A stretch of DNA of 64,000 bases from a candidate division LCP-89 bacterium. GTDB lineage: Bacteria > Electryoneota > B3-LCP. Below the pieces are notes generated by a model. It was not told the DNA's origin and did not search any database. It worked only from the letters and a program-made list of their open reading frames with translations. The stretch covers positions 62,001 to 126,000 of the forward strand of contig JALGVT010000001.1 in the NCBI GenBank assembly GCA_025774555.1, in the 5' to 3' direction. Shown here in pieces: positions 10,528 through 61,800 of the stretch. The position numbers and the translations under genes were made by a program. Numbering within the stretch: position 1 is the first letter of the stretch; every line of letters begins with the position of its first letter.

Positions 10528-12216
10528 CTATCTTAGCAGCACCACCTTCTCCGCCGCCTGATATTCCCCTGCCTTCAACCGAACAATATACACCCCCGAC
10601 GGCAAACCCTCGCCATCGAAGGTGATTTGGTGCGTGCCAGCGTGATAATATCCCGTAGTCGGGGTCGTCCCTGACCCCGACAATTGTAGGGGCGACGCGT
10701 GCGTCGCCCTGTTGTTAATCTTGCATCCAGCTATATCGAACACATCCAACCTGACCTTTCCCGCCACTGGCAGATCGAAACTAATCACCGTCTGTGAATT
10801 AAACGGATTGGGATAGGTATTTAGTACTATTTCAGACGGCGGAATGGGGGGTTGAGGGATTTCTTCCACTCCTACTGATTGGTGATAAGATGTATCCCCA
10901 AGTATAATATGAATCCTCCCCCATAAATTCTGCGTATAGAATTGATTAAATCCTGGTTCTCCTATAGCCAGGTCTTCTAAATCGTCTCCGTTGATATCAC
11001 CTATGTTGCAGACTCCCTGCCCAAGGTTACTTTCTGTATTTCCTTGATAATAGATTGCATCATATAGTGTATCTGGATTTGCACCATTCAGACATACATA
11101 TACTTTGCCTGCATTTAAAACATTTGATGAATTCCCTGATACAATATCCTCCCATCCATCCCCATTAAGGTCAATACCTAGTAGATGATCTCCTATTGTA
11201 TTAAAATAATTGCCAGGACCAGGGAATATATAGTCAGGCTGAGAATGACTCAAGACTGGAGAGAGAAAAATGTATATCGAACTTTCAATTGATGGAGGAT
11301 AGTTTCTTCTATTACCAACTACCACGTCTTTAATCCCATCCCTATTAAAATCGACTCCGGTAACTGACACCCCCAATTTGGAATCCTCTTCTTCCCCCCA
11401 AATTGTAACATCCGCTAAAGTATCTGGAATAGAACCACCATGGTAGATTGCTAGATAACCGAGATCATCCTCTTCTTGAGGTCCATCACAGAACCTATCC
11501 ACAATGACAATATCATTGAAATTGTCTCCATTAACATCACCTAAGCCGGCGGCATCCCAACCCACTCGTTGAAATTCTCCGCCACCCTGCAATTGCCAGT
11601 CGGGGATATTATCTAGTACTTCTCCCCCATAATAAACATATATTCGACCTCGATAATCTTCTTCGTAATCTATCCAGAATTCATAGTCGAGGATCATGAA
11701 GTCGTTTCCCCCATCCCCATTGAAATCTCCGATCCCCGCTCCCCTATAGCCAAATAAAGTATCCCAATTCTCCTGTCCCTGAATTATTAAGTCTGGAATT
11801 GTGTCGAGAATGCTACCTCCAAAATAAAGATAAACTAGACTGCACTCTACAGGCGCTGATGGACTATCCACATTAATTATAAAATCAACGCCACCATCCC
11901 CGTTGACATCACCTACATTATATAGCGAGATACCGAAATTATAACCGATTGTATCTGGTTTAGGAATTATTAGATGTGGGATTGTATCTGGCATCGAATT
12001 CCCAAAATAGACAAATGCTTCTTCATTCCAACTTCCAACCAAAAAATCATCATATCCATCTTGGTTAATATCACCAAGGGCTGCAATACTGGTCCCAATT
12101 CCTGTCGAATCCGTCTCGCCCATATCCATCCACCAGGCTTCTAGTTCTTGCACCTGTGCGGCAGCGGTTAGTGCTGTTATCAGAATAAAGATGGTGGTTA
12201 AGGTCAGTTTTTTCAT
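10528..12216 (-). CDS. Secreted FG-GAP repeat protein with C-terminal sorting domain
   Basis: 562 residues with signal peptide MKKLTLTTIFILITALTAAAQ. About seven FG-GAP/VCBS-type repeats cover residues 35-440 (GDINQDGYDDFLVG, GDVNGDGGVDFIIN, GDFNGDGGNDFMI, GDVNGDNFNDIVI, VDFNRDGIKDVVVG, IDLNGDGWEDIVSG, GDINGDDLEDLAIG), with Asp/Asn-rich calcium-binding-like loops, suggesting an integrin-alpha-like beta-propeller. The last 95 residues are a sorting domain (YPNPFNSQTVISF...EKVVLLR). Inside that domain an extra stretch reading NNRATHASPLQLSGSG is translated from two REP-like palindromes (10659-10709). Surface adhesion is a guess; secretion is well supported. Confidence 0.88.
   Translation of the reverse strand: MKKLTLTTIFILITALTAAAQVQELEAWWMDMGETDSTGIGTSIAALGDINQDGYDDFLVGSWNEEAFVYFGNSMPDTIPHLIIPKPDTIGYNFGISLYNVGDVNGDGGVDFIINVDSPSAPVECSLVYLYFGGSILDTIPDLIIQGQENWDTLFGYRGAGIGDFNGDGGNDFMILDYEFWIDYEEDYRGRIYVYYGGEVLDNIPDWQLQGGGEFQRVGWDAAGLGDVNGDNFNDIVIVDRFCDGPQEEDDLGYLAIYHGGSIPDTLADVTIWGEEEDSKLGVSVTGVDFNRDGIKDVVVGNRRNYPPSIESSIYIFLSPVLSHSQPDYIFPGPGNYFNTIGDHLLGIDLNGDGWEDIVSGNSSNVLNAGKVYVCLNGANPDTLYDAIYYQGNTESNLGQGVCNIGDINGDDLEDLAIGEPGFNQFYTQNLWGRIHIILGDTSYHQSVGVEEIPQPPIPPSEIVLNTYPNPFNSQTVISFDLPVAGKVRLDVFDIAGCKINNRATHASPLQLSGSGTTPTTGYYHAGTHQITFDGEGLPSGVYIVRLKAGEYQAAEKVVLLR
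10659..10709. repeat. Pair of REP-like palindromes inside a reading frame
   Basis: Palindrome A: TCGGGGTC (10659-10666) pairs with GACCCCGA (10673-10680). Palindrome B: GGGCGACGC (10690-10698) pairs with GCGTCGCCC (10701-10709). Both lie inside the sorting-domain coding region of the FG-GAP gene and keep the frame. A relative of A is at 61484-61513 and a relative of B at 12420-12439, both outside intact genes. Confidence 0.8.
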
Positions 12217-12225
12217 AATAGGGTC

Positions 12226-12345
12226 TCACCTTATAAGTAGCATCTTCTTCGCAGCAACATATTCCCCTGCTACCAACCGAACAATATACACCCCCGACGG
12301 CAAACCCTCGCCATCTAAGGTGATTTGATGCGTGCCGGGTTTCAG
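12226..12345 (-). pseudogene. Detached C-terminal sorting-domain cassette
   Basis: On the minus strand this segment encodes GTHQITLDGEGLPSGVYIV and ends in AAKKMLLIR followed by a stop, 9 bp upstream of the FG-GAP gene start. It is the last third of a sorting domain with no protein body. Its DNA matches the same part of the FG-GAP gene (12259-12337 against 10561-10639) with about six mismatches in 80 bases, so the copies separated recently. Upstream of it lie palindromes rather than a gene. It could be the relic of a deleted gene or a duplicated cassette. Confidence 0.7.
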
Positions 12346-12392
12346 GTCGGATTCCCCCCACGAAGTGGTTCCTTTGAAGAATCCGACGCCGC

Positions 12393-12440
12393 GTAGGGGT
12401 CGGTCTTGTGCCGACCCGAGGGCGAGGCAAGCCTCGCCCC
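12393..12440. repeat. Pair of REP-like palindromes next to the detached sorting domain
   Basis: GGGTCGG (12397-12403) pairs with CCGACCC (12411-12417) around the loop TCTTGTG. GGGCGAGGC (12420-12428) pairs with GCCTCGCCC (12431-12439) around AA. The first is nearly identical, loop included, to the palindrome inside the gene at 31443-33647. The second is a sequence variant of palindrome B at 10690-10709. Confidence 0.8.
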
Positions 12441-13071
12441 TACTGGACTCCAGGTCGTCGCCCGGAGTGACACATATCATACCCTCAATATAACCAATAT
12501 TTCGTAATTTGTCAAGGGAAACTATCGGTCAGGACAAAAAAAGGCAGGGTGGGTGGCATGCTTCTGGTCCGTCTCCTGATGGAACGAAGCATGTTTGTAT
12601 GGGCGGATCCGCGTGTCCGCCCTGTTTTATTGCAGAGCGTCCCACTTATGGTAGTTAACTAAATATCTTGACACCGTCCGGGAATTTCCCAAAGGGATGC
12701 CTATAGTACATTACTGGGCATCAATCCTTCCTCTATGCCATCCACCCCCTCTAAAAATCTCCTCACTTATCCCTTGTATTTACGATACAAATGTTGTATA
12801 TTATATATACAGGTGTTACTCTTACTCGCCAACCTGTTCCGCGGAATCCTTAATAAATCAGTGAAATCTGTGATCCCTTTTTCTGAATCCTGAACCCTGA
12901 ACCCTGAATCCCAATAAAACGACATCACCTCGTGTCGTCTATAAATGAGCGACATCGGTTCATGTAGCTCTAAAACCAAACAGACGGTCACAAGACCGCC
13001 TGCCATTTTCCATTTTTATTCTTTATTTATTCAGAATGTGTGGTCGGGACAGCTGAATATCCCGGCGCGTA
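12441..13071. other. Long intergenic region with degenerate repeats, no gene supported
   Basis: About 630 bp without a convincing gene. A 47-bp repeat (12551-12597) recurs at 61592-61640; it begins GGGTGGCATGCTTCTGGTCC and ends GAACGAAGCATGTT, so its ends are imperfectly complementary. Near 12881-12914 a short tandem of CTGAACC/CTGAATC units occurs. A 79-residue frame on the minus strand (12767-13006) runs through this repeat text and has no recognisable protein features. Confidence 0.5.
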
Positions 13072-31442: not shown

Positions 31443-33647
31443 ATGCGCACGTCCCCCCGTTGCATCTTTAGATGCCTGCTGATCGTTTCAATCCTGCTTG
31501 GTTTAGTATCGAACTCTTCCGCCATTGAATACTTTGAAACATCAAATGGTCTGTCCTATCCCCAATGGGAAGGCGGACACACCGAGATCGAAATGGCTGA
31601 CCTCAACCTTGACGGTCACATAGATTTAATTTCCATAGGAGATCATGGATCCCCCTATATCAATACCCAGGAACACGGCGTCATGGTCTATTTCAACGAC
31701 GGCACCGGCAGAAGCTGGAGCGTTCACCAGAATGGAAATTTCGGTTATGGTGGAATCTGTGTCGGCGATGTTAACGACGATGGACTCCCTGACATCGGCT
31801 ATGGTATGCACCATAACTATTCCAGCAATGACTTCGGCGACCAGTTGATTGAAGTCGCTCTGGGTGACGGCAGCGGTCAGAACTGGACGCCCTGGGATGA
31901 CGGTTTGGCTTCACAGGGTGAAGATTATGGAATGTTCGCCTGCGATTTCGGGGACGTCGATAATGACGGCGACCTGGATATTGCCTCGACCTCCTTCGGA
32001 TCAGGTAATCCCTTGATGATATATCTAAACAATGGCGATGGCACCTGGACTCATAGCCAGGCTGTTACCACGGGTAATTGCAGTATGATCGTCTTCTTCG
32101 GAGACATCAACAAGGACGGAAACCTGGATGTGGCATCATCTTATCAAAATGGCTCGGTCTTTTTCGGAAATGGCGATGGAACCTTCTTTAACGCTATGTA
32201 TAACCTGCCGGGTTCTTACTGCTATGGTTTATCTTTAGGAGATGTCGATAATGACGGCGGCATGGACATCTCCTTCGTCAACAACGGTAATCCCGAGGTC
32301 TGGACTTTCGATGAATCAGCCGTGCAGTGGATTAACAACACAGGCAATCTGCCCACCGGCAGTTACGGGTACACTCACCTGTGCGACATGAACGCAGATG
32401 GCTTCTGTGATCTTGCCGCCACCAGCAGCGGCACAGTTACCGTCTGGACTGGTAACGGCGCCGGAAACTGGAGTTTTGCTGCAAGCTATGTAATTGCCAA
32501 CGATCCGGATTGCTATTTTGAGGCGTTCCGCGTGGGCGGCGATGCGGACCATAACGGCTACCCCGACATCGTTCACTTAACCGACGAAGGAAGTTGGATC
32601 AACAGTTACAACCATCTCCGCTTTTATAGAGAATCTTCACTTCCCACCAGTCTTACCTGTTTCCCCGTGTTTCCTGGCGGTGGCGAGCTTTTCCCGGTTG
32701 GATCAGTCCGCTTCACAGATTGGTTATCCGCTGTACCAGAAGGCTTGGGTGAATCGACTGTTGATATCCACCTTTCAACTACCGGTCCTGCCGGTCCCTG
32801 GACTCCTGTCGCAGAGAATGTCCCCAACAACGGTCGCCTGCAATGGATTATTCCCGAAGTTACGACTTCCGCCAATTGCTTTTTGAAGTACACGGTAACT
32901 GCCGGCGCTTTCACGGTTGAAGCTGAAACTCCGCTGGCATTCACCATTGTAAGCAGCGGCGTTCCCAACGTTCAGATTATCCTGCGTCCTATGAATCCGC
33001 CGGTTCAAATTCCCGCAGCCGGAGGCAGTTTCGACTATAACGTTGAAGTGAACAATAATTCGGGGTCACCACAGAACTGTAACGTCTGGATCGATGTTAC
33101 CTTGCCGGGTGGTTCGGTAGTCGGTCCGGTTGTCAACGCTTCGGCTACGATACCGACCGGGATGATCGAGCGCACCAGAACACAGCTTGTGCCAGAAAAC
33201 GCGCCAACAGGAACGTACAGTTACAACTCTTACGTTGGAATATATCCGAACGCAATCTGGTCTTCTTCCAGTTTCGATTTTGAAAAATTAGGGTATGGTG
33301 ATAATCTGAGCCTCGCAGGTTGGTTAACTTATGGCGAACCCTTTGAGTTCAATGAAAACCAATGCACCCTTTCTCCTTCATCCTTTATCCTTAATGGTTG
33401 CCACCCCAACCCCTTCAACCCCTCAACCACGATCAGCTTCGAACTGTCAGGAACCGCACAGGTCAGGCTGGATGTTTATGATATCAGAGGACGCAGCGTA
33501 GGGGTCGGTCTTGCGCCGACCCGCCAATACCCTGCTGGTCATAATGCAATCACTTTCGACGGTTCCCATCTGCCGTCGGGAATATATATCTACCGTATCC
33601 AGGCAGGAGAGTATACCGGAAGTGGGAAGATGCTCCTGCTGAAATAA
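31443..33647 (+). CDS. Large secreted FG-GAP/VCBS repeat protein with C-terminal sorting domain
   Basis: 734 residues with a signal peptide (CLLIVSILLGLVSNSSA). Residues about 30-400 carry FG-GAP/VCBS repeats (DLNLDGHIDLISIG, GDVNDDGLPDIGYG, GDVDNDGDLDIAST, GDINKDGNLDVAS, GDVDNDGGMDISFV). Then follow Ig-like beta domains (about 410-620: WIIPEVTTSANCFLKYTVTAG, SFDYNVEVNNNSGSPQNCNVWIDV). The final 90 residues are a sorting domain, CHPNPFNPSTTISFEL to SGKMLLLK. Within it GVGLAPTR is translated from a REP-like palindrome. Its own promoter lies just upstream. Likely a surface or released structural or adhesive protein. Confidence 0.88.
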   Translation: MRTSPRCIFRCLLIVSILLGLVSNSSAIEYFETSNGLSYPQWEGGHTEIEMADLNLDGHIDLISIGDHGSPYINTQEHGVMVYFNDGTGRSWSVHQNGNFGYGGICVGDVNDDGLPDIGYGMHHNYSSNDFGDQLIEVALGDGSGQNWTPWDDGLASQGEDYGMFACDFGDVDNDGDLDIASTSFGSGNPLMIYLNNGDGTWTHSQAVTTGNCSMIVFFGDINKDGNLDVASSYQNGSVFFGNGDGTFFNAMYNLPGSYCYGLSLGDVDNDGGMDISFVNNGNPEVWTFDESAVQWINNTGNLPTGSYGYTHLCDMNADGFCDLAATSSGTVTVWTGNGAGNWSFAASYVIANDPDCYFEAFRVGGDADHNGYPDIVHLTDEGSWINSYNHLRFYRESSLPTSLTCFPVFPGGGELFPVGSVRFTDWLSAVPEGLGESTVDIHLSTTGPAGPWTPVAENVPNNGRLQWIIPEVTTSANCFLKYTVTAGAFTVEAETPLAFTIVSSGVPNVQIILRPMNPPVQIPAAGGSFDYNVEVNNNSGSPQNCNVWIDVTLPGGSVVGPVVNASATIPTGMIERTRTQLVPENAPTGTYSYNSYVGIYPNAIWSSSSFDFEKLGYGDNLSLAGWLTYGEPFEFNENQCTLSPSSFILNGCHPNPFNPSTTISFELSGTAQVRLDVYDIRGRSVGVGLAPTRQYPAGHNAITFDGSHLPSGIYIYRIQAGEYTGSGKMLLLK
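33498..33524. repeat. REP-like palindrome inside a sorting-domain reading frame
   Basis: GGGTCGG (33502-33508) pairs with CCGACCC (33516-33522). Stems and flanks (GCGTAG before, CGC/CGA after) are nearly the same as at 12391-12420. It lies in frame between the two halves of the sorting domain of the FG-GAP protein, the same relative place as the palindromes at 10659-10709. Confidence 0.78.
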
Positions 33648-46389: not shown

Positions 46390-49300
46390 CTATTTAAGAA
46401 GCAGCACCTTCTGTGCCACCGACTGCTCTCCGAACCGCAGGAGAGCGAAGTAAATTCCTGAAGCTAAATAATCACCGCGCACGGTAACCGTATGACGACC
46501 CGCCGCAAGTTGACCATTGACCAGCGACACCACCTTCTGCCCGAGGGTGTTGTAGATAGCCAGATCGACGTATCCACCATGCGGCAATTGGAAATTGAGC
46601 AATGCCGATGGATTTGCGGGATTAGGCACCGGAGCAAACAGCTCTAATTTATCGAAGACGCCGCCCTGTCCCATACTGCCATCACCGAACGCATCCGGCG
46701 GATCAGTGGTGAACTTAATGGCTCTCTCGTTTTCAAGAGGCGCGCAGGCGTCGGGATAATGGTTGGCATACGCGTACTCTAATCCTCTGATGTGAGCTTC
46801 ATCTTCTATGCCCACTGTGGCGTAATTGTTGTTGTCATCTACGTCCTGCACAGCTAAGTACTGAAAGAGAATCTCACCATCGCCCGTTGACGTCGGATGT
46901 TCGGCTGGATCGTAGAGGATAATCTCGAAGGTCTCCTCTTTCCAGTTGGCATAAGTTTCATACTGGTAGCGGTTGATCGTTCGACTCCATTCAATGATAA
47001 AGCGTCCGCCAGCGTCATCGTAATCCGTATAAACGTCGATGCTGCTGTTGCCGCCGGTCGTATCCGCCTTCAAATCATCCCAGAAGGGCGAAATCAGAGA
47101 CGGAGGACCCAGCGCAGAAGGCATATTCCAGTTACGGAAGTTCGCCATCCAGGTCGATCCCATCGATATCCATCCGTTAGAACAGATGGTAATAGTATCG
47201 TATTCGCCCCCGTAATATGAGAAAGTAAACGGCAGTTCCACGACCGTTGACTTGTCATCGCCGAGTTGATGCAGATCGCCGCCGCTGCCGCTGTATTCAG
47301 GATCAAGTTCAACCCAGTTAAATGACGGCGCTTCAGCGTAGTTGACGTCCGTGTCGTCGTATGCGTAGTAGCCGTACGAATCGGGTCCCAACGGATCGGT
47401 CGAAGTCTGTTCACCGAACTGCATGGTGAAATTCACATTCTGAACGTAGCTGTCCCCCGCATCGATTTCTAAATCCAAGATGACCTGACGCCCCACCGCC
47501 GCGTCAGCGTCGATATTTATCGAATACGGCGCAGAGCTTACCCCGATTCCATCAGGCGGGACAATCGGAAATGCGGAAACGTTGGCGGTGATTGTCACCG
47601 CGCCGTCCGAACAACTGAGAGTCCCTGTCGGTTGGTTAGCTGACAATGTCCCGGCGTTATAGATCTGCAGCAGGAGTTCAGCGCTGCTGCCCGGGTTCAG
47701 GTCACCGCTTTGAACTATTATCCCAGCCGGCATAAAGAACATTCCGCCCACCGGCACGATAAATTTTATTTCGCTGTTATGCAAAGCATCGTCCGAGAGT
47801 GCGAGCGTCAACTCAATTACATGACCTTCAGGGCAATGCGGCATCACGCTGAAAGTAAAATCAGCGTCGGCATCACCGGATGCCGATACCGTTCCAACAC
47901 TCGCTGTCGAAGCGCTGATGGAAACGAAGTCATCGCTTTCAGTCAGGTCGGCAGTTACACCAGTTAGATCGCTCGATCCGTAGTTATGCAGCTTAACAGT
48001 CAAATCGACGCTCTCACCCGCCGAAACAACGCCATCGCCATCAACAGAAACGTCCGCAATTCCAACCGGGAAATCATTGACGGAAATGTCGATAACTGCC
48101 TGTTCGGGGATGCAGTTCTGCTTGGATACGGTGACTTTCAGTTCGCCTTCCGTCAGCGGCTGGATCTCAACTTTAACCGTCCCGTCACTGCCGGTAACAC
48201 CGCCGGCTAAGACTTCATCCTGCTTGTAAAAGGCAACGTAAGCTCCGCCCAATGGCGCGCCTGATGCGTTGGTAACCGTGGCGGTAACCTGCTGCTTTCC
48301 GGGGAGCAGTTGATCAGCAACGTCGAGTTCAATTTCGGACGGGATCATGGTCCAGATGGCGAGTTCAGGATCTCCTAAGATATTATAGACGTGGAAGTAG
48401 AATTCAGCGAAATCGCCGGTGCCGGTGTTTTCCGGAAATCCATAGTACAGTTCGAACTTCGACCTCAATGACGACTGCCCGATCCGGTACAGGTTCTCTT
48501 CTAAGAGCCCTTCAAAGAAACCGGCGTATAGAGCGTTATTCCATTTGGTGTTGGTATGCAGATCGGACGGTCCGAAGAAAGCCACGCCTCCGATATAGTT
48601 CACCGGTGTGCCAGCACGCAGCCATGCCTCCCCGAAACAGGGATTAACACTGGCATTTCCAAAATCGCCGGTGTTGCATACCATACTGACGACAACGGGT
48701 GTTTTTGATCCATTGCTGAGGTTGTCTACATCATCTACTGCAAAGACCGGATATTGCCATCCATTGGCGTCCGCCCAGCCGCGGTACCCGACTAAACCAA
48801 CTCCATCGTTTAAGGCGTCTGCAATTAAATCTGTGCCGGGATAGGTAGGATCCGGCGCCCAGTAGAAAACAGTGTCCACTTGCAGATAGCCGTAATCGTA
48901 TAGTTTATCCACCAGCCATAAACTCGTCCAGACCGGCGTAATCGGCGCAATGCCGGTATCAGAATAATTACCGGCGACAACTAACGCTTCAGTCAGCCAG
49001 TCAGTGCTGCCAACGGCGTCGGGACTCTGCTGGTAGGCTTTTGTTTTACTGATAGCGGTGATAAGTTCATAATCCGAATTGACCGAAATTCTGCCGACCA
49101 TAATGTCAGGGAAGTAATCCAGACCTTCCAGCATGGTATAAGGGTGGTCCGATACGTCCTGCTCACCGCCGCCGGGTTTTACAATGGAATATGCGGGAAC
49201 AGTAATTTGACCGCTTATATCACCGATCAGAAGCAGATAATCCAGCGCAGTGTCAGCGCCGTAGTATTGTTCCATAACCGCTTCTTTAATTGCTTCGCGC

Positions 49301-50154
49301 GAACTGCCTATCAAAGAAAGGTGTTTAATAGTAACCTGGTAACCCAATTCCCGCTTCCACTCAGCTAAGATCTCGATCATATCATCGAGAGCGCTGCCAT
49401 AAGTGAGATCATCGACAATAATCAAGTATCCACCGCGCGGTCCTTCACCCACCAGCGGCACAGCCGTATTGAACTCATCCAGATTGTCAATCAGAGATTC
49501 ATAGAGCGGCTGGAACGCTTCGGATGGTCTCGCATGATGCGTCTTTAGGTTCACCGTGGAAGGCTGCTGCGTCTTTATTTCAATTTCCAGCCTCGTAGCC
49601 AGCATCAGTTCCTGATTGATCGCGTCGTATCGAACCGGGGAAATATCTACCTGCGCCACGCGGTAGTCCTTCAGTATTCCCGGCGGATTAACTTCTGCCC
49701 AGTTCAATGGGTAAATATCTTCTATCTCAACCTGAGACGATTCCAGAATCGCCGAACCCTCAATAGGTTCTGCAAGATAGGGATTATCGCAGGCAACAGT
49801 CTGATATTCAACATTATGAATCACTACGACCGGATCTTTATCGTCAGGAATCGCCAGCAGTCGGGCGATAGCAGGCATTACCGGTAATCCGACTTCTGTT
49901 AAAACGCCGGATTCTGGCAGAATGACCTTCGTCCGTGTTTCACCGTCCTGTTGCACCGCCTGTGTCCAGAAACCGGGGCACTCCAGAATGAGGTGTGTGC
50001 CGGATGCATTGCTCGTGATAATCTGAACCGACCAGGATTCACCCTCGGATGATCCGGGCGCACCGTGCCAGGTAAGCGGCGCCTGAAATGGAGTCGCTAT
50101 CCCATATAACGGCAGCAAAATCAGCATGCAGAGTGCAGTAGCTCGCAAATTCAT
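46390..50154 (-). CDS. Secreted gingipain-like C25 peptidase homologue with C-terminal sorting domain
   Basis: 1254 residues with signal peptide MNLRATALCMLILLPLYGIA. A propeptide-like region reaches about 215. A Peptidase_C25 domain covers about 235-605 (YLIIVDDLTYGSALDDMIEILAEW, DYLLLIGDISGQ, YFPDIMVGRISV). The candidate catalytic Cys is in VVVSMVCNTGDFG (about residue 493), but the usual GHG histidine segment reads GYRGWADANGW (about 455), with no His. Ig-like domains follow (VTATVTNASGAPLGGAYVAFY, repeated CARDB-like modules), then a beta domain (FSYYGGEYDTITICSNGWISMG) and a sorting domain (PVPNPANPSALLNFQL to QKVLLLK). A secreted peptidase or inactive relative. Confidence 0.88.
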   Translation of the reverse strand: MNLRATALCMLILLPLYGIATPFQAPLTWHGAPGSSEGESWSVQIITSNASGTHLILECPGFWTQAVQQDGETRTKVILPESGVLTEVGLPVMPAIARLLAIPDDKDPVVVIHNVEYQTVACDNPYLAEPIEGSAILESSQVEIEDIYPLNWAEVNPPGILKDYRVAQVDISPVRYDAINQELMLATRLEIEIKTQQPSTVNLKTHHARPSEAFQPLYESLIDNLDEFNTAVPLVGEGPRGGYLIIVDDLTYGSALDDMIEILAEWKRELGYQVTIKHLSLIGSSREAIKEAVMEQYYGADTALDYLLLIGDISGQITVPAYSIVKPGGGEQDVSDHPYTMLEGLDYFPDIMVGRISVNSDYELITAISKTKAYQQSPDAVGSTDWLTEALVVAGNYSDTGIAPITPVWTSLWLVDKLYDYGYLQVDTVFYWAPDPTYPGTDLIADALNDGVGLVGYRGWADANGWQYPVFAVDDVDNLSNGSKTPVVVSMVCNTGDFGNASVNPCFGEAWLRAGTPVNYIGGVAFFGPSDLHTNTKWNNALYAGFFEGLLEENLYRIGQSSLRSKFELYYGFPENTGTGDFAEFYFHVYNILGDPELAIWTMIPSEIELDVADQLLPGKQQVTATVTNASGAPLGGAYVAFYKQDEVLAGGVTGSDGTVKVEIQPLTEGELKVTVSKQNCIPEQAVIDISVNDFPVGIADVSVDGDGVVSAGESVDLTVKLHNYGSSDLTGVTADLTESDDFVSISASTASVGTVSASGDADADFTFSVMPHCPEGHVIELTLALSDDALHNSEIKFIVPVGGMFFMPAGIIVQSGDLNPGSSAELLLQIYNAGTLSANQPTGTLSCSDGAVTITANVSAFPIVPPDGIGVSSAPYSINIDADAAVGRQVILDLEIDAGDSYVQNVNFTMQFGEQTSTDPLGPDSYGYYAYDDTDVNYAEAPSFNWVELDPEYSGSGGDLHQLGDDKSTVVELPFTFSYYGGEYDTITICSNGWISMGSTWMANFRNWNMPSALGPPSLISPFWDDLKADTTGGNSSIDVYTDYDDAGGRFIIEWSRTINRYQYETYANWKEETFEIILYDPAEHPTSTGDGEILFQYLAVQDVDDNNNYATVGIEDEAHIRGLEYAYANHYPDACAPLENERAIKFTTDPPDAFGDGSMGQGGVFDKLELFAPVPNPANPSALLNFQLPHGGYVDLAIYNTLGQKVVSLVNGQLAAGRHTVTVRGDYLASGIYFALLRFGEQSVAQKVLLLK

Positions 50155-57355: not shown

Positions 57356-58990
57356 ATGAGAAAAAGAAAGTACTCGCAATTACTTATGTTTGCGCTTGCC
57401 CTGCTGTTCTTTTCCTGGGTGGTTCTCCCACAGCCGGCTCTGGCAGTCTGGCATGTCCTGCTCAATGAACGCTTCGATGACGAACCGCCTGACTGGCCCT
57501 GGGGAAACTGGGAACTCTATCCTGATCTGCAGTGGAGTGGCGGTTGAGGCGGCGGTCCACCCTACGTGTGGGGAGTTCAGGACTATATCTTCAAAGTCAA
57601 CGGTTTGGACAATCAGAGCATATGGTGCGTTGGTCAGCCGAATACACTGGATCCAGAATTTGATGATTACATTCCCAATACTAATGCCTGGGCGAAATGG
57701 GGTCCTATCGACCTATCCTCTGCGGTTGCTGCCAAAGCCAGTTTCTGGTATTATTGTGAATCTCAACCCTATTCCGATTACGTCCGCTGGGGAGCTTATC
57801 CAACGAATGCCTTCAACATGAACGAGGCGAGGCGTGTTAGCGGAATCATGACGGAATGGATGTACGGATACGTTGATTTCGACAGCCTTGAAGGCGGCGC
57901 GGTCAGTCTGATCGGCGAATCAAACGTTTATCTCCTCTTCCACTTCTACTCCAACGGCGACCTTGAAACTGATCTCGGAGCTTTCATCGACGAAGTGAAC
58001 ATCGCCTGGGATGACGGCTACTACGATTTCGAGGCGCTGGGCATCTCGTTTGCGCTATCCGATTCATCCTGGGCATACGAAGCAGTCATCGGCGATACAA
58101 TGCTGTTCAAACTGGACTGGAAAGCATACGGCAGCGGAGTCACTCCGCCCTTTGACATCACCTGCTATCTCGACGGATCACCCCTCTATACTGAAAGACG
58201 CAGCGTCGATATAGGCGGCAGCCAGATGGTCTGGGAAGAAACCTATACCGATCCCTGGATCGTGTCTTCGGGAACTCATACGGTTGGATGGTATCTCGAT
58301 TCCAGCAGGGAAATCGAAGAATCCGATGAAACGAATAATGACACGCTGCTAACCTTCGAAAGCCAGGCGCCGAACGTGCCACCCTGGATTCACTTCTTCC
58401 ATCCGAACTACGGCGATACTGCCGCTACGGAATTCCTGATTACCTGGGAAGACGAAGACCCGGATGACAACGCCATGATCTCCCTCTACTGGGATTTCGA
58501 CAGCCTCGGCTTTGACGGCTATCCTATATCCGGTGCTTCCTGGATCGAAGAAGACGACACGCTGGACTGCTTCAACTTTAACGTTACGCCCATCAATGAA
58601 GGCGAAGTGTGGGTCTTCGCTTATATGACCGACAACCAGGTGGAAACCTGGCAATACAGCGATGGGCCTCTAATCGTCGATCATGATTGGAATAGCGTGG
58701 ATGAGTGGGACTCTGGCAGATATACGGATCAATTCACGCTGGAGAGCATCTATCCTAATCCCTTCAACAGCGGCACAAAGATCCGCTTTGGTCTCCCTGC
58801 CGCTGAAAACGTGGCGCTGAAAATTTATGATTCGATGGGGCGCATCTGCGCAGAGCCCTTCCAGGGCATACTTTCAGCAGGATACCATGAAATTTCCTGG
58901 ACTCCTGGAGATCTACCTTCTGGTCTCTATATCGTTGAAATCAACGGGGAGGGGACACAGCAGAGAGGCAAACTGCTCTACCTTAAATAA
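57356..58990 (+). pseudogene. Secreted CARDB-like protein with sorting domain, interrupted by one in-frame TGA
   Basis: The frame from ATG 57356 spans 545 codons to TAA 58990 with a single TGA at 57545-57547. Before it: a signal peptide (LLMFALALLFFSWVVLPQPALA) and WHVLLNERFDD...DLQWSGG; after it: GGGPPYVWGVQDYIFKVNGLDNQS. The paralogue at 59318 reads LPWSGSGPPFTWGVQDYLFKVNGLDNQS, so the protein continues straight through. GGA to TGA would explain the stop. Other parts: a jelly-roll-like N-terminal domain, a CARDB-like domain (SGTHTVGWYLDSSREIEESDETNNDTL), an Ig-like segment and the sorting domain (YPNPFNSGTKIRFGL to GKLLYLK). Promoter and ribosome-binding site are intact. A start inside the second part at 57566 has no ribosome-binding site. 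Confidence 0.85.
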
Positions 58991-59268: not shown

Positions 59269-59317
59269 ATAGTATATTATAATAGCTACGATAATGCCTT
59301 TATATGCGGAGATGATC

Positions 59318-60943
59318 ATGAAAAAGAACGGCGCTTACCCTGCATTTATACTCGGCTTCTTAATACTTATAATCTCAATGGGTATAATTACCCAGCCAGC
59401 AAAGGCTGTCTGGCACGTCCTGTTAAACGAGCGTTTTCATCAGGAACCAATTACCTGGCCCTGGGCGCCCTGGACGATTAATCCAAACCTCCCCTGGTCA
59501 GGCAGCGGCCCACCGTTCACCTGGGGAGTGCAGGATTACCTCTTTAAAGTAAATGGCTTGGACAACCAGAGTCTCTGGTGTGTAGGAAACCCTAACAACC
59601 TGGATCCAGAATTCGACCATTATCCACCGAATACTAACTGCTGGGTAAAATGGGGCCCCATCGATCTGAGTGATGCTGTTGCCGCCCGCGCCTCATTCTG
59701 GTATTACATCGATTCTCAGCCGTATTCAGATTACGTCCGTTGGGGAGCCTATCCGGCAAATGCTTTTAACATGTACGAAATGGACCGCTGCAGCGGACTC
59801 ACACCTGAATGGATGTATAGCTACGTAGATTTCGACAGCCTTGAAGGCGGAACCACCAGTCTGCTCGGCGAACCAAACGTCTATCTCGTATTCCAATTTT
59901 ATTCCAATGGAGATACTGAGGTCGGCATAGGCGCCTTCATCGACGAAGTGAGCATCGCCTGGGACGACGGCTACTACGATTTCGAGGCGCTGGGCATCTC
60001 GTTTGCGCAACCCGATTCATCTTGGACGTACGAAGCAGTCATCGGCGATACAATGCTGTTCAAACTGGACTGGAAAGCCTATGGCAGCGGAGTCACTCCG
60101 CCTTTTGACATCACCTGCTATCTCGACGAAGCGCCTCTCTATACCGAAAGACGCAGTGTCGATATCGGTGGAAGTCAGATGGTCTGGGACGAGACCTATA
60201 CCGATCCCTGGATCGTGACTTCGGGAACTCATACGGTTGGATGGTATCTCGATTCCAGCAGGGAAATCGAAGAATCCGATGAAACGAATAATGACACGCT
60301 GATAACATTCGAAAGCCAGGCGCAGAACGTGCCGCCCTGGATTCACTTCTTTCATCCGACCTACGGAGATACTGCCGCCACGGAATTCCTGATTACCTGG
60401 GAGGACGAGGACCCGGACGACAACGCCATGATCTCCCTCTACTGGGATCTCGACAGCACGGGATTTGACGGCTATCCCATCTCGGGAGCCTCTTATATCT
60501 TAGAAGACGATCTCGCAGACAGTTTTATGTTTGACGTCAGTGGTATCAACGAAGGTGAGGTCTGGGTATTCGCCTACATGACCGATAACCAGGTAGAGAC
60601 CTGGCAGTACAGCGACGGACCACTGATCGTGGACTACGACTGGGTTAATGCCAGTCCGGTAAAATATCCCGGATTTGCTGAAGATTTCACGCTGGAAACC
60701 GTCTATCCTAATCCGTTCAACAGCAGCACGAAGATCCGTTTCGGACTGCCTGCCGCTGGAACCATAGCGCTGAAGATATACGACTCGATGGGACGCCTCT
60801 GCGCAGAACCCTTCCGAGGAACATTATCAGCAGGCTATCATGATATAGCCTGGTCACCCGGTGATCTGCCTTCAGGGCTGTACTTCATTGAACTGGCGGG
60901 TCAGGAGATGAAACTGCGCGCCAAAGCGCTTTACCTGAAATAG
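59318..60943 (+). CDS. Secreted CARDB-like protein with C-terminal sorting domain (intact paralogue)
   Basis: 541 residues from ATG 59318 (GGAG at 59308); upstream in-frame ATGs precede the signal peptide (AFILGFLILIISMGIITQPAKA). The layout is the same as the interrupted gene upstream: N-terminal domain (VWHVLLNERFHQEPITWPWAPW, GVQDYLFKVNGLDNQSLWCVG, ARASFWYYIDSQPYSDYVRWGAYP), an immune-inhibitor-A-like or jelly-roll beta domain, a CARDB-like domain (HTVGWYLDSSREIEESDETNNDTL), an Ig-like segment and the sorting domain YPNPFNSSTKIRFGL to RAKALYLK. No peptidase motif (HExxH) is present. The middle region is nearly identical in DNA to the upstream copy. Function unknown. Confidence 0.87.
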   Translation: MKKNGAYPAFILGFLILIISMGIITQPAKAVWHVLLNERFHQEPITWPWAPWTINPNLPWSGSGPPFTWGVQDYLFKVNGLDNQSLWCVGNPNNLDPEFDHYPPNTNCWVKWGPIDLSDAVAARASFWYYIDSQPYSDYVRWGAYPANAFNMYEMDRCSGLTPEWMYSYVDFDSLEGGTTSLLGEPNVYLVFQFYSNGDTEVGIGAFIDEVSIAWDDGYYDFEALGISFAQPDSSWTYEAVIGDTMLFKLDWKAYGSGVTPPFDITCYLDEAPLYTERRSVDIGGSQMVWDETYTDPWIVTSGTHTVGWYLDSSREIEESDETNNDTLITFESQAQNVPPWIHFFHPTYGDTAATEFLITWEDEDPDDNAMISLYWDLDSTGFDGYPISGASYILEDDLADSFMFDVSGINEGEVWVFAYMTDNQVETWQYSDGPLIVDYDWVNASPVKYPGFAEDFTLETVYPNPFNSSTKIRFGLPAAGTIALKIYDSMGRLCAEPFRGTLSAGYHDIAWSPGDLPSGLYFIELAGQEMKLRAKALYLK

Positions 60944-61416: not shown

Positions 61417-61800
61417 CTCTGTCCCACAGGGACGCCTTCGGTGCGCCGACACGAGGGCGGTTCATGAATCACCTCTGCACTCCGTAGTCGGTGGTCGTCC
61501 CGACCCCCCGACAAAAACAGAAGATCACTGATTGACGCAGATTGTAATGGATTTCGCTGATTTCCTTCGCTGTCATTCCGGCGGAACAGCCGGGGTGGCA
61601 TGCTTCTGGTCCCGACCCGTCGGGAACGAAGCATGTTGTATCTGTTGAATGTGCTGTTGGGTCTCCGCACCCGACAGCTTCTTTTTCTTTATGTCACGTC
61701 TTGGGCTGAAAGTTCTTTGCCCGAGAAATTTCCCAAAGGACTTTAACTGAGTACACCGGACGTTATCCATGCCCCCTGTCCTCCCTCAAACCCTAATCCA
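61417..61800. repeat. Cluster of dispersed palindromic repeats
   Basis: No gene is supported here. 61484-61513 is a relative of palindrome A at 10655-10682 (GTAGTCGG...GGTCGTCCC...CCCCGACA). 61592-61640 matches 12551-12597 (GGGTGGCATGCTTCTGGTCC to GAACGAAGCATGTT). Between them is ATCCGTG/GATTTCGCTGATT-type degenerate text (61530-61560). Minus-strand frames through this region have no protein features. Confidence 0.65.

Follow-up and report, generated by a model that had tools for sequence, protein, structure and literature searches.

The question raised by this locus is how short palindromes came to be translated in frame within the secretion tags of otherwise different proteins, and whether they serve any purpose there. 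REPs are named for their extragenic location and are normally kept out of genes. The window, i.e. the whole stretch of 64,000 nucleotides that was analysed, corresponds to positions 62001-126000 of contig C64 in the draft assembly (3.37 Mb, 86 contigs; genome G000) of a candidate division LCP-89 bacterium.

Window palindromes and their host genes

Every palindrome cited in the first-pass annotation is present in its place, and all of them are GTAG-foot REP elements, so that their description as REP-like was correct, as was their in-frame position in the same loop of two otherwise different proteins. The first host gene (10528-12216, minus strand) encodes an FG-GAP repeat protein (PF01839/PF13517) with a C-terminal T9SS type A sorting domain (PF18962 and TIGR04183, above cut-off). 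The domain itself (10531-10842, minus strand; positions 7-94 of a custom domain HMM) contains two REPs in its loop. One is an F-type element (TCGGGGTC.GACCCCGA; 10655-10681, plus strand) with the letters GTAG-TCGGGGTC-GTCCCT-GACCCCGA-C and 37 copies genome-wide, which reads SGSGTTPT on the coding strand. The other, assigned to the A type by its sequence and its genome-wide copies (GGGCGACGCGTGCGTCGCCC; 10686-10709, plus strand; letters GTAG-GGGCGACGC-GT-GCGTCGCCC), reads RATHASPLQ on the coding strand. The two REPs are arranged head to tail, and within this ORF their in-frame minus-strand translation is NNRATHASPLQLSGSGTTPTTG.

The second host gene (31443-33647, plus strand) also encodes an FG-GAP repeat protein with a C-terminal T9SS type A sorting domain (PF13517; PF18962 and TIGR04183, above cut-off). 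Its domain (33369-33644, plus strand; HMM positions 5-94) has a REP-encoded loop, in which a lone B-type REP (GTAGGGGTCGGTCTTGCGCCGACCC; 33498-33522, plus strand) is translated, starting in frame at the conserved Val codon, as V-GVGLAPTR. According to an AlphaFold2 model covering 33360-33644, built from window sequences only, the domain is all-beta and the REP residues form a low-confidence coil loop between strands, with pLDDT < 50 at residues 49-51 of the REP loop. A Foldseek search against PDB returned many generic beta-sandwich matches, with the T9SS substrate 8glk_D only at rank 28, and contributes little to the identity of the domain; the same substrate ranked first by sequence profile.

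A third piece of sorting domain, next to which palindromes had also been reported, proved to be an orphan 3' half (12229-12351, minus strand; domain HMM positions 54-94, and its translation). As it is frame-shifted relative to the REP frame, it is regarded as a decaying remnant. It adjoins an inverted pair of two different REPs (12393-12443), consisting of a B-type element (GTAGGGGTCGGTCTTGTGCCGACCC; 12393-12417, plus strand) and its inverted C-type partner (GTAGGGGCGAGGCTTGCCTCGCCC; 12420-12443, minus strand), which reads VGARLASP in the loop frame. The intergenic occurrence of the same families is likewise confirmed by a decayed F-type copy (GTAGTCGGTGGTCGTCCCGACCCCCCGAC; 61484-61512, plus strand).

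Several other features of the window were noted. A further palindrome, GTCGGATTC...GAATCCGAC, read VGFGESDL, is found in the same loop beside E- or C-type REPs, at window positions 12340-12390 and at C26:23079-23390 and C7:18667-18981 of the same genome. A hairpin-shaped 45-nt repeat (GGGTGGCATGCTTCTGGTCC...GGAACGAAGCATGTT) occurs at 12551-12595 and 61593-61637 with 82% identity, and a similar repeat stands ahead of the REP/RAYT region of contig C18. Two neighbouring paralogues (57547-58990 and 59294-60943) are 73-85% identical in DNA along extended stretches, and the second has a borderline T9SS sorting domain. In addition, a Gingipain-like C25 peptidase related to PorU (46390-50154, minus strand) has its own sorting domain with a native loop.

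Distribution of REPs and their three sites in the sorting domain

In the 3.37-Mb genome G000, about 133 exact REP sites were obtained as the sum of three exact-match pattern scans: 75 distinct sites for GTAGGGGCG...CGCCC, about 21 for GTAGGGGTCGG...CCGACCC and near variants, and 37 for TCGGGGTC..GACCCCGA. Reversed-pattern controls in this genome gave 0 matches, and one further control scan gave one match. The 5' GTAG foot is present on all loop and linker families and on the F type, and the many copies are dispersed, the majority being extragenic. The surroundings of all ~133 sites were examined and the sites classed by a sorting-domain HMM built from this genome together with the codon scores of open frames, with gene calls being ORF- and codon-based. 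Sorting-domain coding DNA holds about 47 of the sites, including five or six within truncated copies; a further ~30 sites lie just 3' of the tags, within 160 nt of a sorting domain; and only two or three fall in other recognisable genes, namely a LutB-like ORF (C21:18572-18631), a RAYT gene (C85:39022) and, less certainly, a short ORF.

Sorting domains make up about 2% of the genome and hold about 47 of the ~50 in-gene REPs, the binomial tail remaining below 1e-50 even when the domain is assumed to represent 5% of coding DNA. The possibility that the palindromes are equally frequent at random coding positions is thereby rejected, and their enrichment in sorting domains stands. The stronger claim that they are tolerated only in a secretion tag must be reduced to near-exclusiveness, owing to the LutB-like gene with a REP pair and the single RAYT gene. 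TIGR04183 matches amount to at least 150 domains (150 of 249 candidates scored), a total that is possibly undercounted; T9SS membership was assigned by a C-terminal match above cut-off, and the genome encodes a full-length T9SS translocon, SprA/Sov (TIGR04189, E 4.7e-238).

Two side observations concern REPs outside the tag sites. At C21:18572-18631 an in-frame REP pair (SGSGATPTTDTDVGATRASP) lies in a 546 aa ORF that resembles LutB (lactate utilisation) by sequence reading, the one clear coding case outside tags and transposases. A separate REP stem family is located ~17-95 nt past sorting-domain stops (GCGCACGGC.GTGCGCCC in G000, GCGTTTAATTAAACGCCC in the relative G003); in G000 it is often followed by a T run and is terminator-like (e.g. 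C23:5270, C70:3293 and C57:16036 in G000, and L324 924-947 in G003).

Within the domain REPs occupy three spots, in the linker that precedes PNPFN, in the loop that follows the conserved Val and in a hairpin ahead of the last strand, each with a fixed orientation and frame and largely with its own stem family. The first-pass annotation had recognised the loop; the other two sites are additional. Linker REPs (GGGCGACGCACGCGTCGCCCCTAC or GGGCGAGGAGACCTCGCCCCTAC) read GDARVAPT or GRGDLAPT directly before [EG]FxLxxxYPNPFN, and all 13 of the 13 exact-pattern cases have GTAG on the non-coding strand with the same frame of the foot (APT). In the loop, GTA GGG... starts on the conserved Val of GRxV and gives VGVGLAPTR, VGARLPRPY, VGARRASP or VGAHGxAP, with GTAG on the coding strand except in the window copy at 10686 and in the second members of inverted pairs. 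The last hairpin reads SGSG[AT]TPT ahead of [TS]GKMVLMK in nine cases. Stem types are biased by site, as A-type stems were found 12 times in the linker vs once in the loop and other stems 3 vs 20 times (Fisher 4e-6). The majority of sorting domains have no REP.

The description of these REPs as inserts is correct as to frame but too simple as to length. The distance from Val to Gly is 10 residues in 102 of 121 parsed domains, the commonest length, and loops with a double-foot REP have 10 residues, those with the B type 12, and those with REP pairs 20 or more. Since several REP loops have exactly 10 residues (VGARLPRPYMTG, VGVQHVEPLQSG) or 12, the REP replaces the loop rather than lengthening it. 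Native loops contain no palindrome and have unrelated residues. In the linker, REP-encoded APTEF agrees with the native P[ST]EF (PxEF) consensus, and the length is unchanged in several paralogues.

The use of the same sites recurs across genera. Among a 39-genome sample of the phylum, the loop-REP pattern was confined to this family (8 matches in G000, 1 in G002, 9 in G003 and 7 in G004) and was not found in its members G001 or G005, and the linker pattern was identified in every one of the six genomes of the family (15 in G000 and 9 in G003), with single matches in three others. In G003 all 21 of 21 TTCAACATGTTGAA sites are in the loop and read VGVQHVEPLQ or a close variant, and different stems occur at the linker (GAQHAAPLQ, GATHASPLQ) and at the 3' flank. 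As this loop stem is found nowhere else in that genome, it acts there as though it belonged to the domain, unlike a free mobile element. For G004, 18 of 29 REPs in the stretches examined around matches lie within domain coding DNA. The same codon positions are thus filled by different palindromes in different genera.

Transposases, domain history and competing explanations

The RAYT-type transposase anticipated by the first-pass annotation is present. Eleven PF01797 matches were identified in G000, among them a RAYT gene (C18:45087-45419; motifs DHIH, WQ and YVLNNP) that sits between inverted GTAGGGGTCGG REPs identical to the window REP at 33498-33522. A RAYT gene with flanking REPs has the same layout on contig C18 of G004, so that for the B type REPs flank a RAYT gene in both genomes. 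Another RAYT gene, on contig C85 of G000 (L242 1000-1480; motifs NHMH and WQ), contains a D-type double-foot REP in frame between its HuH and Tyr motifs; this REP reads NVGARLPRPY, the same peptide as in tag loops, and the frame is broken downstream of it. Double-foot GTAG...CTAC REPs are represented by GTAGGGGCGAGGTTACCTCGCCCCTAC. A search of the flanks of Y1_Tnp matches in G000 and relatives revealed no cognate RAYT for the A, E and F families or the G003 stem, and no GTAG REP was seen near the remaining examined G000 matches or in the examined flank of 29 of 30 matches from relatives; therefore most REP families lack a found transposase. Among GTDB contigs only four RAYT relatives were retrieved, all distant (26-46% identity).

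The history of the domains was approached with a tree of about 63 columns built without the linker, loop and last hairpin. On this tree, clustering is seen for loop-REP domains (10 changes vs a mean of 38 when shuffled), and linker REPs are scattered (26 vs 34 changes). Members of the loop clade without an exact REP mostly have recognisable decayed REPs. Loop REPs thus mostly descend from one old domain lineage in which stems have since been replaced, and the notion of independent insertion events does not hold for most of them. Further REP entries are suggested by exceptions, among them C48:9471, a native-type domain in which native loop residues are retained after a REP-like insert. Within G000, stem type showed no association with flank similarity (p 0.21 and 0.28 for the two flanks), which is weak evidence, in keeping with in-place exchange of stems and weakly disfavouring a strict model of one stem per lineage. 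No pair of empty and filled sites showing a single insertion event was found.

It is most plausible, in our view, that GTAG-REPs of several RAYT-type families settled at three permissive surface sites of the T9SS tag. The REPs would occasionally have reached these sites via RAYT single-strand chemistry or by annealing of REP strands at the GTAG/CTAC foot, an arriving REP replacing the native loop codons; the annealing targets might have been a native GTAG (Val-Ala codons) or CTAC (Pro-Thr codons). Such foot annealing would result in replacement and could therefore explain the conserved loop length, which, being usual, argues against plain insertion. The REPs may then have spread mainly with the sorting domain, duplicated to at least 150 copies and recombined among secreted proteins, their stems later being swapped for the current REP type of the genome. 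In other gene positions REP insertions would be removed by selection, and tolerance at the tag is proposed to be due to the three spots being exposed loops. RAYT-driven insertion and active tag shuffling are candidate processes only.

Pure spread of the domain would dispense with exchange altogether, assuming a single REP entry per site and subsequent inheritance or conversion with the sorting domain. The clustering of loop-REP domains across four genera, the separate stem families at each site and the confinement of the G003 stem to the loop (21/21) all agree with it; however, the loop alone has at least six stem types uncorrelated with flank similarity, the stems match extragenic and RAYT-flanking REPs, the linker REPs require about 26 changes on the tree, and the insert at C48:9471 has kept native loop residues, which makes this account rather unlikely. 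A tag-shuffling system, in which secretion tags pass from one protein to another by recombination at REPs, was already envisaged in the first-pass annotation. Mosaics with a 5' half of the loop type joined at the loop REP to a 3' half of the native type were seen in 3 of 21 loop-REP domains vs 0 of 76 native domains (Fisher 0.009, with a threshold chosen after the scores were seen), the orphan tag half of the window starts at a REP pair, and C7:37590 and C41:25556 are alike in body and linker REP (82%) but have tags of different type (69%). These cases are few, the similarity among the domains would by itself allow recombination, and pairwise DNA comparison has high baselines, the identity up- and downstream of linker REPs being too noisy to show tag swapping alone. 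The proposal thus retains some footing in the mosaics and the truncated window tag, and is distinctly unlikely as the general explanation. Slightly less credence is given to the still bolder view of a modular coding system for the tags, in which each of the three sites takes interchangeable REP modules in a fixed frame, RAYT-generated single strands swap these modules, and homologous recombination between them redistributes both half and entire tags among unrelated secreted proteins, so that a domesticated transposase diversifies the cell surface.

Under a selected function of the nucleic acid, a hairpin close to the 3' terminus of the message would stabilise mRNA or pause translation, and its palindromy would be kept while the codons change. 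This would explain why stems are wholly different between genera and yet have complementary arms, and the separate terminator-like stems located 17-95 nt beyond the stop, often followed by a T run, could be cited in its favour. Most sorting domains lack a REP, paired changes of the arms are explained by replacement of whole REPs, and decayed REPs are still found in loops, so such a function is very improbable. The idea that the palindromes are due to chance, or to a conserved protein motif whose coding sequence is palindromic by coincidence, deserves practically no weight. The agreement of linker APTEF with native P[ST]EF at the same length in several paralogues is what such a motif would predict, and to this extent the REP-encoded residues do align with homologues that lack the repeat; this is not so for the loop, where native residues are unrelated and palindrome-free. 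With 0 matches in the reversed-pattern control and identical exact repeats in extragenic DNA, neither chance nor a motif acting at the protein level alone is retained as an explanation of the loop.

Relation to known repeat systems

GTAG-tagged REP families with intragenic members were described by Di Nocera et al. 2013 (PMC3733652). The elements studied here resemble them in the GTAG foot, which is recognised by TnpAREP in other systems (PMC8266576), in the palindrome of 20-30 nt, in occurring as singletons and inverted pairs, and in being mostly 3' of genes with some members in frame within ORFs. The intragenic REPs of that study are located in unrelated genes (DNA repair being noted) at variable positions, whereas here nearly all of them occupy three fixed positions of one secretion domain. 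Known in-gene REPs are scattered, and it is therefore hard to tell tolerated accidents from useful elements.

Rickettsia palindromic elements (RPEs) are longer than the REPs seen here. As presented in PMC3733652 (citing Ogata et al.), RPEs are in-frame palindromic repeats in many protein genes, probably at surface positions, and in both respects they are similar to the REPs of the sorting domain. They occur in diverse proteins, however, and the account given in PMC3733652 describes neither pairing with RAYT nor a focus on a single domain.

REPtrons of RAYT/TnpAREP subclass 2.4 have in-frame 'double-foot' REPs inside the transposase gene and are characterised by N/DH[IFV]H, WQ and YIxNNP motifs and long or double-foot REPs (Quentin et al. 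2018, PMC6006769). Likenesses to this subclass are the double-foot REPs found here, the C85 RAYT with an in-frame REP between the HuH and Tyr motifs, and the C18 RAYT with DHIH, WQ and YVLNNP and flanking REPs. In subclass 2.4 the in-frame REPs are in the transposase, whereas here they are in dozens of secretion tags. The host domain is the known TIGR04183/PF18962 domain, of which one lineage has its usual 10-residue loop replaced by a REP-encoded peptide.

One small domain, present in more than 150 genes, supplies replicates by the dozen at three defined codon positions, and does so in several genera. These replicates make it testable whether REPs come into coding sequence by insertion, replacement or exchange, whether RAYTs act at the GTAG foot, and whether the spread of type IX secretion tags to further proteins is driven by the repeats. 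In the paper collection searched, queries on T9SS combined with palindromic repeats or gene conversion returned nothing relevant and no earlier description. In-gene REPs (PMC3733652) and RPEs are already known; what appears to be new is that REPs concentrate in a single secretion tag, at three sites with a fixed frame, and with stems specific to each lineage.
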